IMG/VR virus record: IMGVR_UViG_3300025168_000600
Coordinates: 1 to 25,472 of that record
DNA length: 25,472 nucleotides
Reading direction: 5' to 3' (one strand)
Source: a virus
Part shown: positions 1,367 to 5,185 of the stretch, piece by piece
Layout of the letters: each line of letters starts with the position of its first letter
Numbering within the stretch: the stretch's first letter is position 1
Notes under the pieces: model-generated
Seen by the model: only the letters and a program-made list of their open reading frames with translations
What the model was told of the DNA's origin: nothing
Databases searched by the model: none
Program-made: the position numbers and the translations under genes

Positions 1367-1579
1367 TTATTCTTCTTCGAAGAAATCTTTAACTATATCT
1401 AAACCTTCTTGTGATTCAGCTACTTTTTTTACTTGAGCTATAAATTCTTGAGCAACATTACTATGTTCTCCTATACCACTAGGTTTATCTAAATATATTT
1501 GAGCATTTGCTACAGCCATATCTCTTTCAGATTCAAAGTGTTTGATTGCTGCATTAATTATAAGGTCTTTATGTGTCAT
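1367..1579 (-). CDS. Small unknown phage protein, 70 aa, last gene of the late operon
   Basis: The chosen start is the ATG at 1579 (MTHKDLIINAAIKHFESE), because it overlaps the preceding stop as TAATG and has a GGAGA Shine-Dalgarno about 8 nt upstream; a longer frame from 1591 is less well supported. The product is acidic, predicted mostly helical, and ends in VKDFFEEE. It has no signal peptide or membrane segment. I do not recognise a characterised family. It is the promoter-distal gene of the leftward operon, ahead of the 1242-1280 hairpin. Confidence 0.75.
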   Translation of the reverse strand: MTHKDLIINAAIKHFESERDMAVANAQIYLDKPSGIGEHSNVAQEFIAQVKKVAESQEGLDIVKDFFEEE

Positions 1580-1866
1580 TAACATCTCCATCTTTTGCGT
1601 GCCTGTCTCAATCTTGAGTTAGGATTCTTTGCAGCCTTCGGGAACTTCTTCATTTGCCCTGCTGATCGAGCACAATAGCTCTTTCTTCTCGCTGCATCTT
1701 TACCTGTAGGATTCTTCTTGGTAACAGCAGTCTTTAATTTACTGCCCGGATTCTGCCTACGATACTTAGCAACTCCCTTGGCTGATAGCCCAGCACCTTT
1801 CTTGGTAGGTCTCTTTGCTCCACTACCAATGGTCATTCCCTTCATGTTGCTCTTAGCTCTTGCCAC
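1579..1866 (-). CDS. Small highly basic protein, DUF6321-like
   Basis: A Lys/Arg-rich protein (up to 95 aa) with a KKGAGLSAKGVAKYRR core, a KSYCARSAGQMKKF segment and a C-terminal ARKRWRC. This matches my memory of the DUF6321 type of small phage proteins (xGLTAKGRAKY, FCARM-type Cys, KRWKC end). The charge suggests nucleic-acid binding, but no function is established. The start is uncertain: the long form begins with GTG at 1866; an ATG at 1845 (MKGMTIGSGAK), 7 nt beyond the upstream stop, gives 88 aa. The stop (TAA 1579-1581) is coupled to the next gene. Two cysteines (mid-protein and C-terminal) are notable in so basic a protein. Confidence 0.8.
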   Translation of the reverse strand: MARAKSNMKGMTIGSGAKRPTKKGAGLSAKGVAKYRRQNPGSKLKTAVTKKNPTGKDAARRKSYCARSAGQMKKFPKAAKNPNSRLRQARKRWRC

Positions 1867-1993
1867 GTTTAGGGAATCCCTTCTTCATATTTGCATATGC
1901 CTTTGCACTAATAGTACTCTTCTTCTTAGTACGACTTATACCTTTTTTCTTTCTAGCATTTATGTTTGCATAGAGTCCTTTTGCTTTAGCCAT
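1853..1993 (-). CDS. Tiny basic protein with GLYANIN motif, 46 aa
   Basis: ATG at 1993 to TAA at 1853-1855. The sequence starts MAKAKGLYANINARKKKG and continues STISAKAYANMKKGFPKRGKS. The GLYANI(N/H)AK/RK start recurs in small basic proteins of many phages, usually annotated only as hypothetical. It is about one third Lys/Arg, suggesting binding to nucleic acid or another polyanion. It overlaps the upstream Cys-rich gene by 34 nt in another frame and the long form of the downstream gene by 14 nt. The Shine-Dalgarno is weak (AAGAG). The conserved start motif is the main support that it is real. Confidence 0.7.
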   Translation of the reverse strand: MAKAKGLYANINARKKKGISRTKKKSTISAKAYANMKKGFPKRGKS

Positions 1994-2106
1994 TCGTCTG
2001 CCCACTCTTGTTGATTATTAACTTCAGTCTTACACTCACAACTCTCACCACAAAGACACACTTCTCCTGTGCATTCTGGATTACCACACTTACATTCTAC
2101 TTGCAT
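1960..2106 (-). CDS. Cysteine-rich small protein, 48 aa, possible metal binder
   Basis: ATG at 2106, with a strong GGAGGA Shine-Dalgarno 4 nt upstream that lies inside the end of the o-spanin gene; stop TAA at 1960-1962. Seven cysteines fall within residues 5-25 in the order CxC-x4-C-x4-CxC-x3-CxC, followed by a charged, Trp-containing tail (QQEWADEWLKQKD). The Cys spacing suggests a zinc or other metal knuckle, or a metallothionein-like clamp. No signal peptide is present, so it should stay in the reducing cytoplasm. I do not recognise a named family. It overlaps the o-spanin stop by 10 nt and the GLYANIN gene by 34 nt. Confidence 0.72.
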   Translation of the reverse strand: MQVECKCGNPECTGEVCLCGESCECKTEVNNQQEWADEWLKQKDSMQT

Positions 2107-2315
2107 AGTTCCTCCCATGATTCGTTGTGTATTAAAATCTGTCTTGCTGTACCATTGGTTAGTCTATCATCATCATGTATTAATATAGGATCTAACAAAG
2201 AACATGAGTCAGTCACTACGTTTCCACCTGTCAAGCAGCTTGTGAGTAACATCACTAATGGAAGTACGAGCAACGTCTTGTTTAATTTTATTCTTTTTTT
2301 TCTTAAGCTTTTCAA
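2097..2315 (-). CDS. Putative o-spanin (Rz1-like outer-membrane lipoprotein)
   Basis: A 72-aa lipoprotein: basic N-terminus (KSLRKKRIKLNK), hydrophobic core (LLVLPLVMLL), lipobox LTSC with the lipidated Cys at residue 27, leaving a mature chain of about 46 aa ending in GTARQILIHNESWEELCK. It is out of frame with, and overlaps by 107 nt, the membrane-anchored charged protein at 2209-2424, the classic layout of spanin pairs that fuse the inner and outer membranes at lysis. The first usable start is TTG at 2315; the only ATG in the signal region would cut away the basic part. The ending resembles the RQIL-HN-xWE-xxC ends I recall in Rz1-like phage proteins. Role is inferred from architecture. 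Confidence 0.72.
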   Translation of the reverse strand: MKSLRKKRIKLNKTLLVLPLVMLLTSCLTGGNVVTDSCSLLDPILIHDDDRLTNGTARQILIHNESWEELCK

Positions 2316-2424
2316 TTTTTAATAAACCTTTTTTAACAGCTGCATCAGCTCCTGCTTTCCTCATTAATATGAAAGGTAGGATTTTAGTAATAAGATTAGC
2401 TAGAGCTGATACAAAAGAAAACAT
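2209..2424 (-). CDS. Putative i-spanin (Rz-like inner-membrane protein)
   Basis: A 71-aa protein with one N-terminal hydrophobic segment (residues about 4-21, SFVSALANLITKILPFIL), then a Lys-rich helical stretch (about 29-50) and a C-terminus DVTHKLLDRWKRSD. This fits a small type II membrane protein with a periplasmic coiled coil, as in phage i-spanins, whose ends often carry a similar LxRW/RD pattern. The out-of-frame lipoprotein gene begins inside it. The ATG at 2424 has no good Shine-Dalgarno but starts 3 nt after the PqqA-like stop, so re-initiation after that peptide is likely. At 71 aa it is short for an i-spanin. Confidence 0.68.
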   Translation of the reverse strand: MFSFVSALANLITKILPFILMRKAGADAAVKKGLLKIEKLKKKKNKIKQDVARTSISDVTHKLLDRWKRSD

Positions 2425-2427
2425 GTA

Positions 2428-2502
2428 CTAGATTTCTGCACATGCATAACAGTTAATCTCAAGACCAACAGCTACTTCTTTTATACTAGGTGTTTTCCAC
2501 AT
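2428..2502 (-). CDS. pqqA: PqqA-like precursor peptide (pyrroloquinoline quinone), 24 aa
   Basis: A 24-codon frame from ATG 2502 to TAG 2428-2430, with a strong GGAAGGA Shine-Dalgarno about 8 nt upstream, embedded in the end of the preceding gene. The peptide begins MWKTPSIKEV and ends VGLEINCYACAEI. This is the layout of PqqA: a Trp-Lys-x-Pro start, a Gly before the core, and the E-x3-Y pair (Glu15 and Tyr19) that PqqE cross-links to build PQQ. Alphaproteobacterial PqqA peptides as I recall them share the WKTPKI.E..VG.EIN.YACA pattern. No pqqB, C, D or E is in the window, so maturation would rely on host enzymes. Inside the lysis cluster, it could raise PQQ for host dehydrogenases or act as a decoy for PqqD/PqqE. 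Confidence 0.8.
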   Translation of the reverse strand: MWKTPSIKEVAVGLEINCYACAEI

Positions 2503-2506
2503 AGAA

Positions 2507-2710
2507 TTATTCCTTCCCTGTTTGTTTAGCTCTACCAATATTAAGAGCTGACCATTCAAGTACCTTATATATTTTACCAAGTACTGAATCTGGATTAGGA
2601 GTTCTGGTACCAGCTACTATTACACTAGCTATAGTTATTATAGATGTAACAGTTGCTATTATCTCAGGTGCCATTGCCCAAATTTGTTGTATCATTCCTA
2701 CTTCTTCCAT
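2507..2710 (-). CDS. Small single-TM protein, holin candidate
   Basis: A 67-aa protein with one strong hydrophobic segment (residues about 15-34, including IIATVTSIITIASVIVAGT), followed by a conserved-looking TPNPDSVLGKIYKVLEWSALNIGRAK and a charged end. I recall this TPxPDxxLGKxYKxxExxALNxGKAK pattern in many phage membrane proteins. Size, single TM and position just before the spanins make a holin the best guess, though no endolysin is recognisable beside it. The start at 2710 is supported by a GGAGGA Shine-Dalgarno and TAATG coupling to the preceding gene; the internal Met6 has a misplaced ribosome site. Confidence 0.65.
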   Translation of the reverse strand: MEEVGMIQQIWAMAPEIIATVTSIITIASVIVAGTRTPNPDSVLGKIYKVLEWSALNIGRAKQTGKE

Positions 2711-3009
2711 TATTCGTATTCCTCCATAGTCGTTAAAGAATCTGCATGTATCTTATGTATCATTGTCTGTAAAGTAAATGACAACTCTACCATTTTAATT
2801 GAACCAGCAAAGTAATCCATTGTAGGCTTATCCTTATCAAACATAAGTACTATGAGCCCTTCAATGTCTCCGGAATCAATCTTTCCTTGTAACATAGTAA
2901 CACATTTCTGTATCATTTCCAATGCTTCTACCTTACCAGTTGGAGTTAAATCTCCTGTCTCTTTGTCAACACTAATAGTTTTACCTGTAAAATCAAGGAC
3001 ATCAGCCAT
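2710..3009 (-). CDS. Unknown small protein, 99 aa
   Basis: The start at 3009 (MADVLDFTGKTISVD) is chosen because AAGGA lies 8 nt upstream and the ATG overlaps the stop of the 727-aa gene; a frame extending 14 codons further upstream has no such support. The first part is a short beta-type stretch with an Asp/Thr-rich loop; the rest is helical with hydrophobic faces (ALEMIQKCVTMLQGKIDSGD; MVELSFTLQTMIHKI). No membrane segment or signal peptide. I do not recognise a characterised family. It sits between the glycan-enzyme pair and the holin-like gene and is coupled to both. Confidence 0.75.
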   Translation of the reverse strand: MADVLDFTGKTISVDKETGDLTPTGKVEALEMIQKCVTMLQGKIDSGDIEGLIVLMFDKDKPTMDYFAGSIKMVELSFTLQTMIHKIHADSLTTMEEYE

Positions 3010-5185
3010 ATAATACATCCTTATAGTTAGGTGATAGCTTCTTACTACCATTAGTTTTCCATAGAGTTCCTCCTAATCCTTCACCATGAATAGAAAGAGT
3101 AATGTCTTTAGGTCTTGTATCAAAGAATTTCTCTAAGTCTTGAGCACCAGCCAGTAATTCTCCTGTTGTCCAGAAGTGTTCGTTATCCACATTAACTTTA
3201 AGAAAAGCTTTCTGACCTTCATCATCTAGTTTCTCTGGTTGTTTAGGTTCTTCTTTTAAACTAAAGTCAAAGCCATGTAGTTTAAAGTCTCTGAATCCTA
3301 GGGTATGCATGATAGATACACTACGCATAGCAGCATTAGTACCACCAGTAATCCATGTTATAGACTTATCCATACCGGGAACTCCTTGAGCTACTGCCTC
3401 ACTATATGCGTGCCATCCTATAATCTGTGCGTGCTTCTCTCTTAATAGATTAGTTACAGATACATCTGTCATACCAGCCACTAAGAATAAAGTAGAAGGG
3501 TCAACTGTTTTAAATAAATCTGTTCTTACTATACCATGAGTAGACAATCCTGTTACTGGTCTTGGGTCTAGTATGGTACATATCCAAGGTTTAATACCAT
3601 GAGATAATAATATAGGATAAGAATGTTTAACACATACTACCTTAGCTTTAGGATTTTCTTTTATCTGTTTCTTAATCAACTCTATATCTAATGAAGGACC
3701 AGCAGACACTAGAATAATTGATTCATCATTAGCTACACAACTATGATTCATCCACTTAGGCAGTATCTTTAAGTTCTCTTTAATATTATTAAGTATATGT
3801 TCCTTTGGCATACTATCTTTAGGAGTTACTACGATAGGAACCTTTGGTTGAAATATATTTTCTTTCTTATCACACACTATAACTAAACCAATAAGACCTG
3901 TACCTAAACAAGGATCACTACTACGTAAAACAGAATTAGGTTTAGTAATTTTTTCTACTACTTGATTAACACCACAGTATTCATCATCAGGTTTCTTACC
4001 ACGTTTATCTTTACCAAAGTAATCATCAAAGATAACTTGAGGATTATGTTTAAGCATTTCATAAGTATGATGAACAGTATCATAAGATGTACCACCACCT
4101 ATCAATACAAAGTCAGCATTGATTTTTTCTTTAAGAGTTTCTTTAACATCACCCTTGTAGAGTTTATAAGTAAGAGTCTTTCCTTTTTCTTTTAATGTAA
4201 GAGCTAAACTTTTTAATTTCTTTTCTGCTTTCTTCAAGGTGAAAGCTTGTTTATTGTTAAACTCTTTAAGGTTTAGTTCAGGAGTAGTCTCTTCAAATAA
4301 ATCATAACCAATATAATGTACTGCATCTGTATGTTTTAATGCATGATGAATCATCATAAGAGCACGAGCTCCTGTATTAGTACCTGTCTCTATAATTGTT
4401 TTAGGTTTGTAATGATCGACCATATCTCCTACAAATTTATAACGAGGAGGTAATGCATTATCATCTTTCTTCATGCCTTTATTATGATACATAACATCAT
4501 TTAATAATGACTGACCGAAGGCATCAATACCTTTTACATTAGGTGTTAAGTTGTCTGCTATTAAACCATGAGCTTTATGTACAATAAGAAGCCTATCAAA
4601 TATAAAACCATCATGCCATTCTCTATAAGCTATAGTTTCTCCAGCATCATAACATCCCCTGAAGTCTTCAAGAAATTCTTTACCCATCATACTTTTTAAA
4701 TTAATACCTATGAAAGAAGTTTCACTATAGTCTATATCATTTCTTCCTAGATGTACTATATCTTTATCGCCTGAACAAACCTTATTTAAAAAGTTTAAAG
4801 TAATAGGAGAGTGTGTTACTGTGTCAGCATCTAACCAGATCAACCAGTTAGTATCACCATAATGATTACGAGCTGATGATGTTAAAGCATATACTTTATG
4901 ACACCACTTAATACAATCTCTCTTCCAATCATAAGGAGTTTTATTAGTAGCAGTACTACTATACTTACTCATCCTCTCTCTGTAGCTAAGCATATCTTTA
5001 TCATCATTTAAATTTTTGTATGTAATGTTCTTAGCTTTAGGTGCAGACTTAGGTAATTCAAAGTCATGATACCATGCTTCCAGTTGTATATCTTTATCCC
5101 AATACTTTTTAAAAGTCTTGAGCATTTCTTGTGCATACTTATCATACCCTTCTTTACTGAAGGATGTAACTATTGTGTAACTCAT
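3002..5185 (-). CDS. Three-domain fusion: GT-A-like glycosyltransferase, methyltransferase-like domain, Maf/DUF115 domain
   Basis: A 727-aa protein with three recognisable parts. Residues about 1-245: GT-A-type glycosyltransferase fold with a metal-binding DxD in WLIWLDADT (Asp119, Asp121). Residues about 250-440: Rossmann methyltransferase-like domain with IIETGTNTGARA (264-275) and GYD (293-295), but the usual DGGHSYE motif reads GGGTSYD (363-369), so activity is doubtful. Residues about 475-727: DUF115/MptE-like domain as in Maf flagellin nonulosonic-acid transferases, with ILVSAGPSLD (491-500), TWITGGTNAA (610-619) and LHGFDFS (636-642). Start ATG 5185 overlaps the preceding glycosyltransferase stop (ATGA), so the two are translated together. 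It probably builds or attaches a surface sugar; substrate and target are unknown. Confidence 0.8.
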   Translation of the reverse strand: MSYTIVTSFSKEGYDKYAQEMLKTFKKYWDKDIQLEAWYHDFELPKSAPKAKNITYKNLNDDKDMLSYRERMSKYSSTATNKTPYDWKRDCIKWCHKVYALTSSARNHYGDTNWLIWLDADTVTHSPITLNFLNKVCSGDKDIVHLGRNDIDYSETSFIGINLKSMMGKEFLEDFRGCYDAGETIAYREWHDGFIFDRLLIVHKAHGLIADNLTPNVKGIDAFGQSLLNDVMYHNKGMKKDDNALPPRYKFVGDMVDHYKPKTIIETGTNTGARALMMIHHALKHTDAVHYIGYDLFEETTPELNLKEFNNKQAFTLKKAEKKLKSLALTLKEKGKTLTYKLYKGDVKETLKEKINADFVLIGGGTSYDTVHHTYEMLKHNPQVIFDDYFGKDKRGKKPDDEYCGVNQVVEKITKPNSVLRSSDPCLGTGLIGLVIVCDKKENIFQPKVPIVVTPKDSMPKEHILNNIKENLKILPKWMNHSCVANDESIILVSAGPSLDIELIKKQIKENPKAKVVCVKHSYPILLSHGIKPWICTILDPRPVTGLSTHGIVRTDLFKTVDPSTLFLVAGMTDVSVTNLLREKHAQIIGWHAYSEAVAQGVPGMDKSITWITGGTNAAMRSVSIMHTLGFRDFKLHGFDFSLKEEPKQPEKLDDEGQKAFLKVNVDNEHFWTTGELLAGAQDLEKFFDTRPKDITLSIHGEGLGGTLWKTNGSKKLSPNYKDVLYG

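Follow-up and report, generated by a model that had tools for sequence, protein, structure and literature searches.

The window, by which we mean the whole stretch of viral DNA analysed here (25,472 nucleotides; IMG/VR record IMGVR_UViG_3300025168_000600), carries a very short gene, pqqA, lodged between a holin-like gene and a pair of spanin genes (Table 1). Its minus-strand translation (2502..2428) is MWKTPSIKEVAVGLEINCYACAEI followed by a stop codon. A first-pass annotation, made from sequence alone, had reported a PqqA-like peptide here and gave the coordinates 2428-2502 correctly, leaving the strand unsaid.

Table 1. Features at and around pqqA in the window
Feature	Position	Strand	Description
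pqqA	2428..2502	minus	24 codons; MWKTPSIKEVAVGLEINCYACAEI; E15-x3-Y19; PF08042 and TIGR02107 above cut-offs; present in 8/8 syntenic stretches
Shine-Dalgarno AAGGA	2511..2515	minus	8 nt before the ATG; read from sequence
Small membrane protein, holin-like	2507..2710	minus	67 aa; hydrophobic stretch; PHROG 9685; directly upstream of pqqA
Rz-like inner-membrane spanin	2209..2424	minus	phrog_1026 Rz-like spanin, E 3.5e-5; directly downstream of pqqA
Rz1-like lipoprotein spanin	2097..2315	minus	phrog_1275 Rz-like spanin, E 8.6e-19; lipobox-like LLTSC; overlaps Rz
Lys/Arg-rich protein	1579..1866	minus	95 aa
Small protein	1853..2005	minus	50 aa
Large protein	3002..5185	minus	727 aa; weak methyltransferase match; MptE-like domain PF01973, E 4e-18

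The peptide scores 29.3 bits against the Pfam PqqA model PF08042 (cut-off 21.1; E 8.3e-7) and 31.8 bits against NCBIfam TIGR02107 (cut-off 20; E 8.9e-8). A six-frame search returned a single PqqA match in the whole record (E 2.4e-7), and the same search returned none in 14 control genomes. Two properties expected of a PqqA precursor are met, namely the Glu-Tyr pair joined by PqqE, in E-x3-Y spacing (E15 and Y19), and a start and ribosome site of its own on a short peptide of 24 codons. The AAGGA element falls within the 3′ end of the holin-like gene, and purine-rich sites are present at the corresponding place before related viral pqqA genes. The earlier claims of PqqA identity, of the E-x3-Y motif and of a ribosome site thus all held. 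No convincing PHROGs family was found for the peptide (best E 0.4), and promoter and terminator scans of the region gave nothing above shuffled sequence.

The genes of the cassette are closely packed, with 4 nt between the holin-like stop and the pqqA start and 3 nt between the pqqA stop and the Rz-like start. The first-pass annotation had noted the placement between a holin-like gene and the spanins, and this held, with unequal support: the spanins are backed by PHROGs matches, whereas the upstream gene is called holin-like by its position and hydrophobic stretch only, its family having no assigned function. The holin-like protein is 76-100% identical among relatives.

A contig of 59,429 bases that is syntenic with the window seems to represent an entire phage genome; it has a 123-base terminal repeat and carries genes for terminase, portal, capsid, GroES, PolA, primase-helicase and ribonucleotide reductase. 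Through this record the requirement that an auxiliary metabolic gene lie on a genuine phage genome is met. The closest cultured relatives, identified by terminase for the 59,429-base contig and by a virion protein for the window, are HTVC027P, HTVC023P, DSL-LC04 and CRP-901/902, all at less than 45% identity, and their hosts are Pelagibacter HTCC1062 and Roseobacter. We conclude that the window derives from an HTVC023P-like podovirus with a genome of about 59 kb.

Conservation and spread of viral pqqA

Using the 727-aa upstream protein as query, eight syntenic viral stretches were found (one of them, L542, being the same as contig L120). pqqA lies between holin and Rz in all eight, with GLEINCYACAEI unchanged, whereas the identity of the flanking proteins drops as low as 65-77%; every copy has an open frame, without stops or frameshifts. 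The Glu and the Tyr are present in 121/121 viral loci of the window's type and in 172/172 of a second, beta type. These totals comprise all viral loci collected, including those fetched by patterns that required both residues. Two capped IMG/VR scans, one per type, left the two positions free, and the loci they returned carry Glu and Tyr without exception. Codons of viral pqqA vary synonymously: pN/pS is 0.175 among same-locus orthologues, 0.25 overall and 0.43 on codons outside the search pattern, the last taken over 105 distinct viral sequences with the pattern-fixed codons left out. Given the unbroken synteny, the retention of Glu and Tyr where neither was asked for and the pN/pS values of 0.175 and 0.43, the gene is not a product of chance. 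It is a genuine phage-borne pqqA under selection; that its product is processed to PQQ is inferred. The first-pass annotation had named as refuting outcomes the lack of any match to PqqA models, the loss of Glu and Tyr in relatives and broken frames among them, and none of these was found: both models match above cut-off, both residues are invariant and all frames are intact.

Viral pqqA is widespread. At least some 388 viral contigs carrying it were collected from IMG/VR, a lower bound from capped scans with degenerate DNA patterns; the first two, which required Glu and Tyr, each returned at least 120 stretches. The viral matches are short open frames of 23-29 codons, and a purine-rich site precedes almost every one. 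They lie between holin and Rz, after the portal gene, before groES, near a ribonucleotide reductase gene, or alone and opposite to their neighbours, so that the odd association with lysis genes remarked on at first holds for the window's phage lineage only. Counterparts of the complete phage's genes for terminase, portal, capsid, GroES, PolA or primase accompany 47/129 window-type loci. Two main peptide subtypes, C..AEI/L and S..AEK, occur in phages as in bacteria, and one viral peptide (L056) is identical to two bacterial ones (L249 and L274). On one further contig (L467) a PqqA-like peptide continues in frame into a long acidic tail rich in Asp and Ser, MEEWNTPEVTEEAVGLEINSYACAAMADDDNG...

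The possibility that the viral contigs are fragments of host operons was considered and is not supported, since neither pqqB-E nor xoxF was seen in the fetched flanks of 382 viral loci (0/382); the bacterial comparison set contains 54 operon and five xoxF-linked copies among 122 pqqA loci. An origin as fragments of host orphan loci is likewise not supported, there being no flank matches among the viral loci to the LysR and MFS genes that border the bacterial orphan copies.

Some small genes are common to the window phage and beta-type pqqA phages, as judged from the 50-aa protein, which is 77-86% identical to products on beta-type contigs L017, L065 and L080. The 95-aa Lys/Arg-rich protein has counterparts at 72-75% identity on beta-type contigs L021, L028, L106, L139, L154 and L222; in L021 and L028 its gene and pqqA are 300 nt apart. 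A DNA match between the window and HTVC010P falls within the window's copy of this gene.

Among cultured phages, a tblastn search of 50,697 phage records with the window peptide gave no match. The beta-type peptide, searched in the same way, matched nine Methylophilales phages, one environmental podovirus and two Acinetobacter contigs. The nine, from Methylophilales isolates, are Venkman, P19250A, MEP301, MEP401, MEP402 and four Melnitz phages. This number gives no carriage rate: MEP431-434, Venkman EXVC038S and others are listed in the taxonomy, and their presence among the 50,697 records is undetermined. Five of the nine have no annotated gene at pqqA. For the other four, the Melnitz records, and for the environmental podovirus, the sole annotated frame at this place is a 'hypothetical protein', which in both loci read (Melnitz-1 and the podovirus) is on the strand opposite pqqA. 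In Venkman and MEP301 pqqA stands alone on the strand opposite to that of its neighbours, and a strong hairpin follows directly on the stop. A match in Acinetobacter phage MD-2021a (H14; L559, CAKLQF020000010.1) was rejected as bacterial chromosome carrying ppk and pqqB-D; this rejection rests on contig H14, its sister record H15 having been left unread. Neither pqqA nor methanol dehydrogenase is mentioned in two methylophage papers (PMC9004378, PMC10580990), nor PQQ in the paper on isolation of OM43 phages (PMC8163748).

An orphan precursor and its bacterial counterparts

A pqqABCDE locus has pqqB-E next to pqqA on one replicon, and the window gene does not fit this description: it is an orphan precursor gene and not a PQQ operon. 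Adjacency to pqqB-E does not define PqqA, however, because bacteria too have orphan copies. PqqE was absent above cut-off from all 49 viral records searched, the window record included, many of these records being fragments. No methanol dehydrogenase was found on the window record. A PQQ-dependent alcohol dehydrogenase passed the cut-off in one viral record, as a full enzyme on a contig of 72,356 bases (L059), a finding reminiscent of the Lake Baikal phages that encode methanol dehydrogenase and PqqA (PMC7678222).

A scan for GLEINxYACA found the window's peptide type in Alphaproteobacteria, mostly marine and some from soil. PqqE exceeded the cut-off in 25/27 bacterial genomes with this peptide type, and PQQ-dependent alcohol dehydrogenases did so in 18/22. 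A further expectation of an auxiliary metabolic gene, namely that bacteria using the pathway possess a close homologue, is therefore met. That these Alphaproteobacteria are the hosts of the window phage is inferred. In their operons pqqB follows pqqA after about 100 nt, and many of them have more than one pqqA, both in operons and as orphans. The first-pass annotation had proposed that the two cysteines flanking the Tyr could matter to processing; as a peculiarity of the phage this failed, because bacterial operon copies have both.

Four orphan chromosomal copies in marine Alphaproteobacteria (L249, L250, L266 and L274) lie beside a gene for a LysR-type regulator, with an MFS-type transporter gene also flanking orphans of this kind where the contig extends. 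One marine alphaproteobacterial genome has five pqqA matches.

Proposed substrate supply and its rivals

PqqA is the protein component that PQQ synthesis consumes; within it PqqE introduces a cross-link, with PqqD as chaperone (PMC7936290). PQQ levels varied in Gluconobacter oxydans when pqqA, pqqABCDE or pqqABCDEN was overexpressed, and in Acetobacter pasteurianus pqqAB brought a 29% increase in PQQ (PMC7936290). We consider it likely, at a probability of roughly 0.75, that phage pqqA is a minimal auxiliary metabolic gene feeding the host PQQ pathway, the production of PQQ during infection being inferred. In this view, phage PqqA would be made alongside lysis and virion proteins and would enter the host pathway of PqqD, PqqE, protease, PqqB and PqqC. 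PqqE would join Glu15 to Tyr19, one PqqA being consumed per PQQ, and the resulting supply would keep periplasmic quinoprotein dehydrogenases (XoxF-type methanol or other alcohol dehydrogenases) running and charged while host gene expression fails. Seventy-five bases would suffice for the phage, because the enzymes can act repeatedly and PqqA alone is spent. Supply of substrate is the simplest reading, because PqqA is consumed and because overexpression of pqqA or pqqAB alters PQQ.

The initial suggestion that a PQQ-making host receives extra precursor from the phage is the best supported of those considered: bacteria with the same peptide type have both pathway and dehydrogenases, and the phages lack PqqE. 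The effect on the host is still inferred. An independent link to hosts comes from the beta-type pqqA of the nine Methylophilales phages, which supports supply. In the absence of expression or product data, host identity, timing of expression, processing, a rise in PQQ and benefit to the phage are all inferences. Several points weigh against supply. The host of the window phage is unknown, its nearest cultured relatives infecting Pelagibacter and Roseobacter, and no cultured phage matched its peptide. Precursor may not be limiting, since bacteria already own pqqA and frequently have more than one copy. If expressed late, the gene would have little time to be of use.

The alternative that survives best, and which we nevertheless regard as unlikely, is a decoy: phage PqqA would saturate PqqD or PqqE and so stop or divert host PQQ synthesis or S-adenosylmethionine use. 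The peptide is indeed carried without PqqE and could be overproduced late in infection. A decoy would not need the joined Glu and Tyr, yet neither varies in any viral copy observed, and the phage peptides equal or closely resemble host copies. The pairing of pqqA with a PQQ-dependent dehydrogenase on L059, and of PqqA with methanol dehydrogenase in the Baikal population VP_266 (PMC7678222), points to use of PQQ.

Also unlikely is a second alternative, in which host enzymes convert the peptide not to PQQ but to another modified product, such as a signal, an antimicrobial or a superinfection factor. The location in a lysis cassette in the window's lineage and a marine RiPP family annotated as PqqA and co-expressed with defence genes (PMC11118758) speak for it; the lack of any further peptide-maturation gene seen beside pqqA, its varying position among phages and the likeness to canonical precursors over the whole length speak against. 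A co-translated peptide serving the holin and spanins, its PqqA likeness being chance or relic, would fit the tight spacing kept in 8/8 syntenic stretches; we give this little credence in view of the PqqA motif, the absence of a membrane helix and the occurrence of the same peptide outside lysis genes in other phages. Finally, a non-functional hitchhiker from a host genome, although compatible with identical peptides in bacteria, is likewise unlikely in view of purifying selection across the 105 sequences, preserved ribosome sites, several phage lineages and positions, and unbroken frames in 8/8 syntenic copies.

Relation to known systems

Phage pqqA as a kind is already known, as the first-pass annotation had allowed: a viral PqqA was reported in the Lake Baikal methylophage population VP_266 (PMC7678222), and a study of reservoir sediment names pqqA among viral genes (PMC13188868). 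Its breadth, its orphan state across lineages, its placement in a lysis cassette and its presence in cultured methylophages seem to be unreported in the literature searched. At 75 bases, it is among the smallest possible auxiliary metabolic genes, found in phages of marine bacteria and overlooked in annotation even of cultured, published methylophages. Cultured methylophage-host pairs make a rise in PQQ, methanol oxidation and a limiting supply of precursor directly testable.

A bolder reading, which could as readily prove wrong as right, sees a general phage strategy in the supply of nothing but the peptide that a cofactor pathway consumes. Orphan pqqA genes of fewer than 30 codons, missed by gene callers, would have been acquired by many unrelated aquatic phages whose bacteria use PQQ, and these phages would in this way determine PQQ levels and alcohol oxidation in a sizeable fraction of the marine methylotrophs and Alphaproteobacteria under infection.

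Set beside known systems, the substrate supply proposed here is closest to that of VP_266, whose PqqA is likewise phage-borne and was proposed to feed PQQ to methanol dehydrogenase (PMC7678222). VP_266 differs in encoding its own methanol dehydrogenase and in having a methylotroph host, whereas the window belongs to a marine podovirus with a peptide of alphaproteobacterial subtype. The pqqA genes of the Methylophilales phages resemble the window's in being orphans of 23-24 codons with their own ribosome site, but encode the beta-type GFEVTMY, and the copies of Venkman and MEP301 lie outside the lysis cassette. Orphan chromosomal pqqA of marine Alphaproteobacteria is also apart from pqqB-E and encodes a close peptide, MWKSPVVKEVAVGLEINCYACAEI; it differs in its fixed place between LysR-type regulator and MFS-type transporter genes, which no viral locus matches. 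Operon copies of these bacteria share the subtype of the window peptide. With the PqqA family at large (PF08042 / TIGR02107), the window peptide has in common its length, the W-x2-P motif and the Gly before E-x3-Y, and is set apart in that its gene belongs to a phage, is not accompanied by pqqB-E and lies within a lysis cassette.
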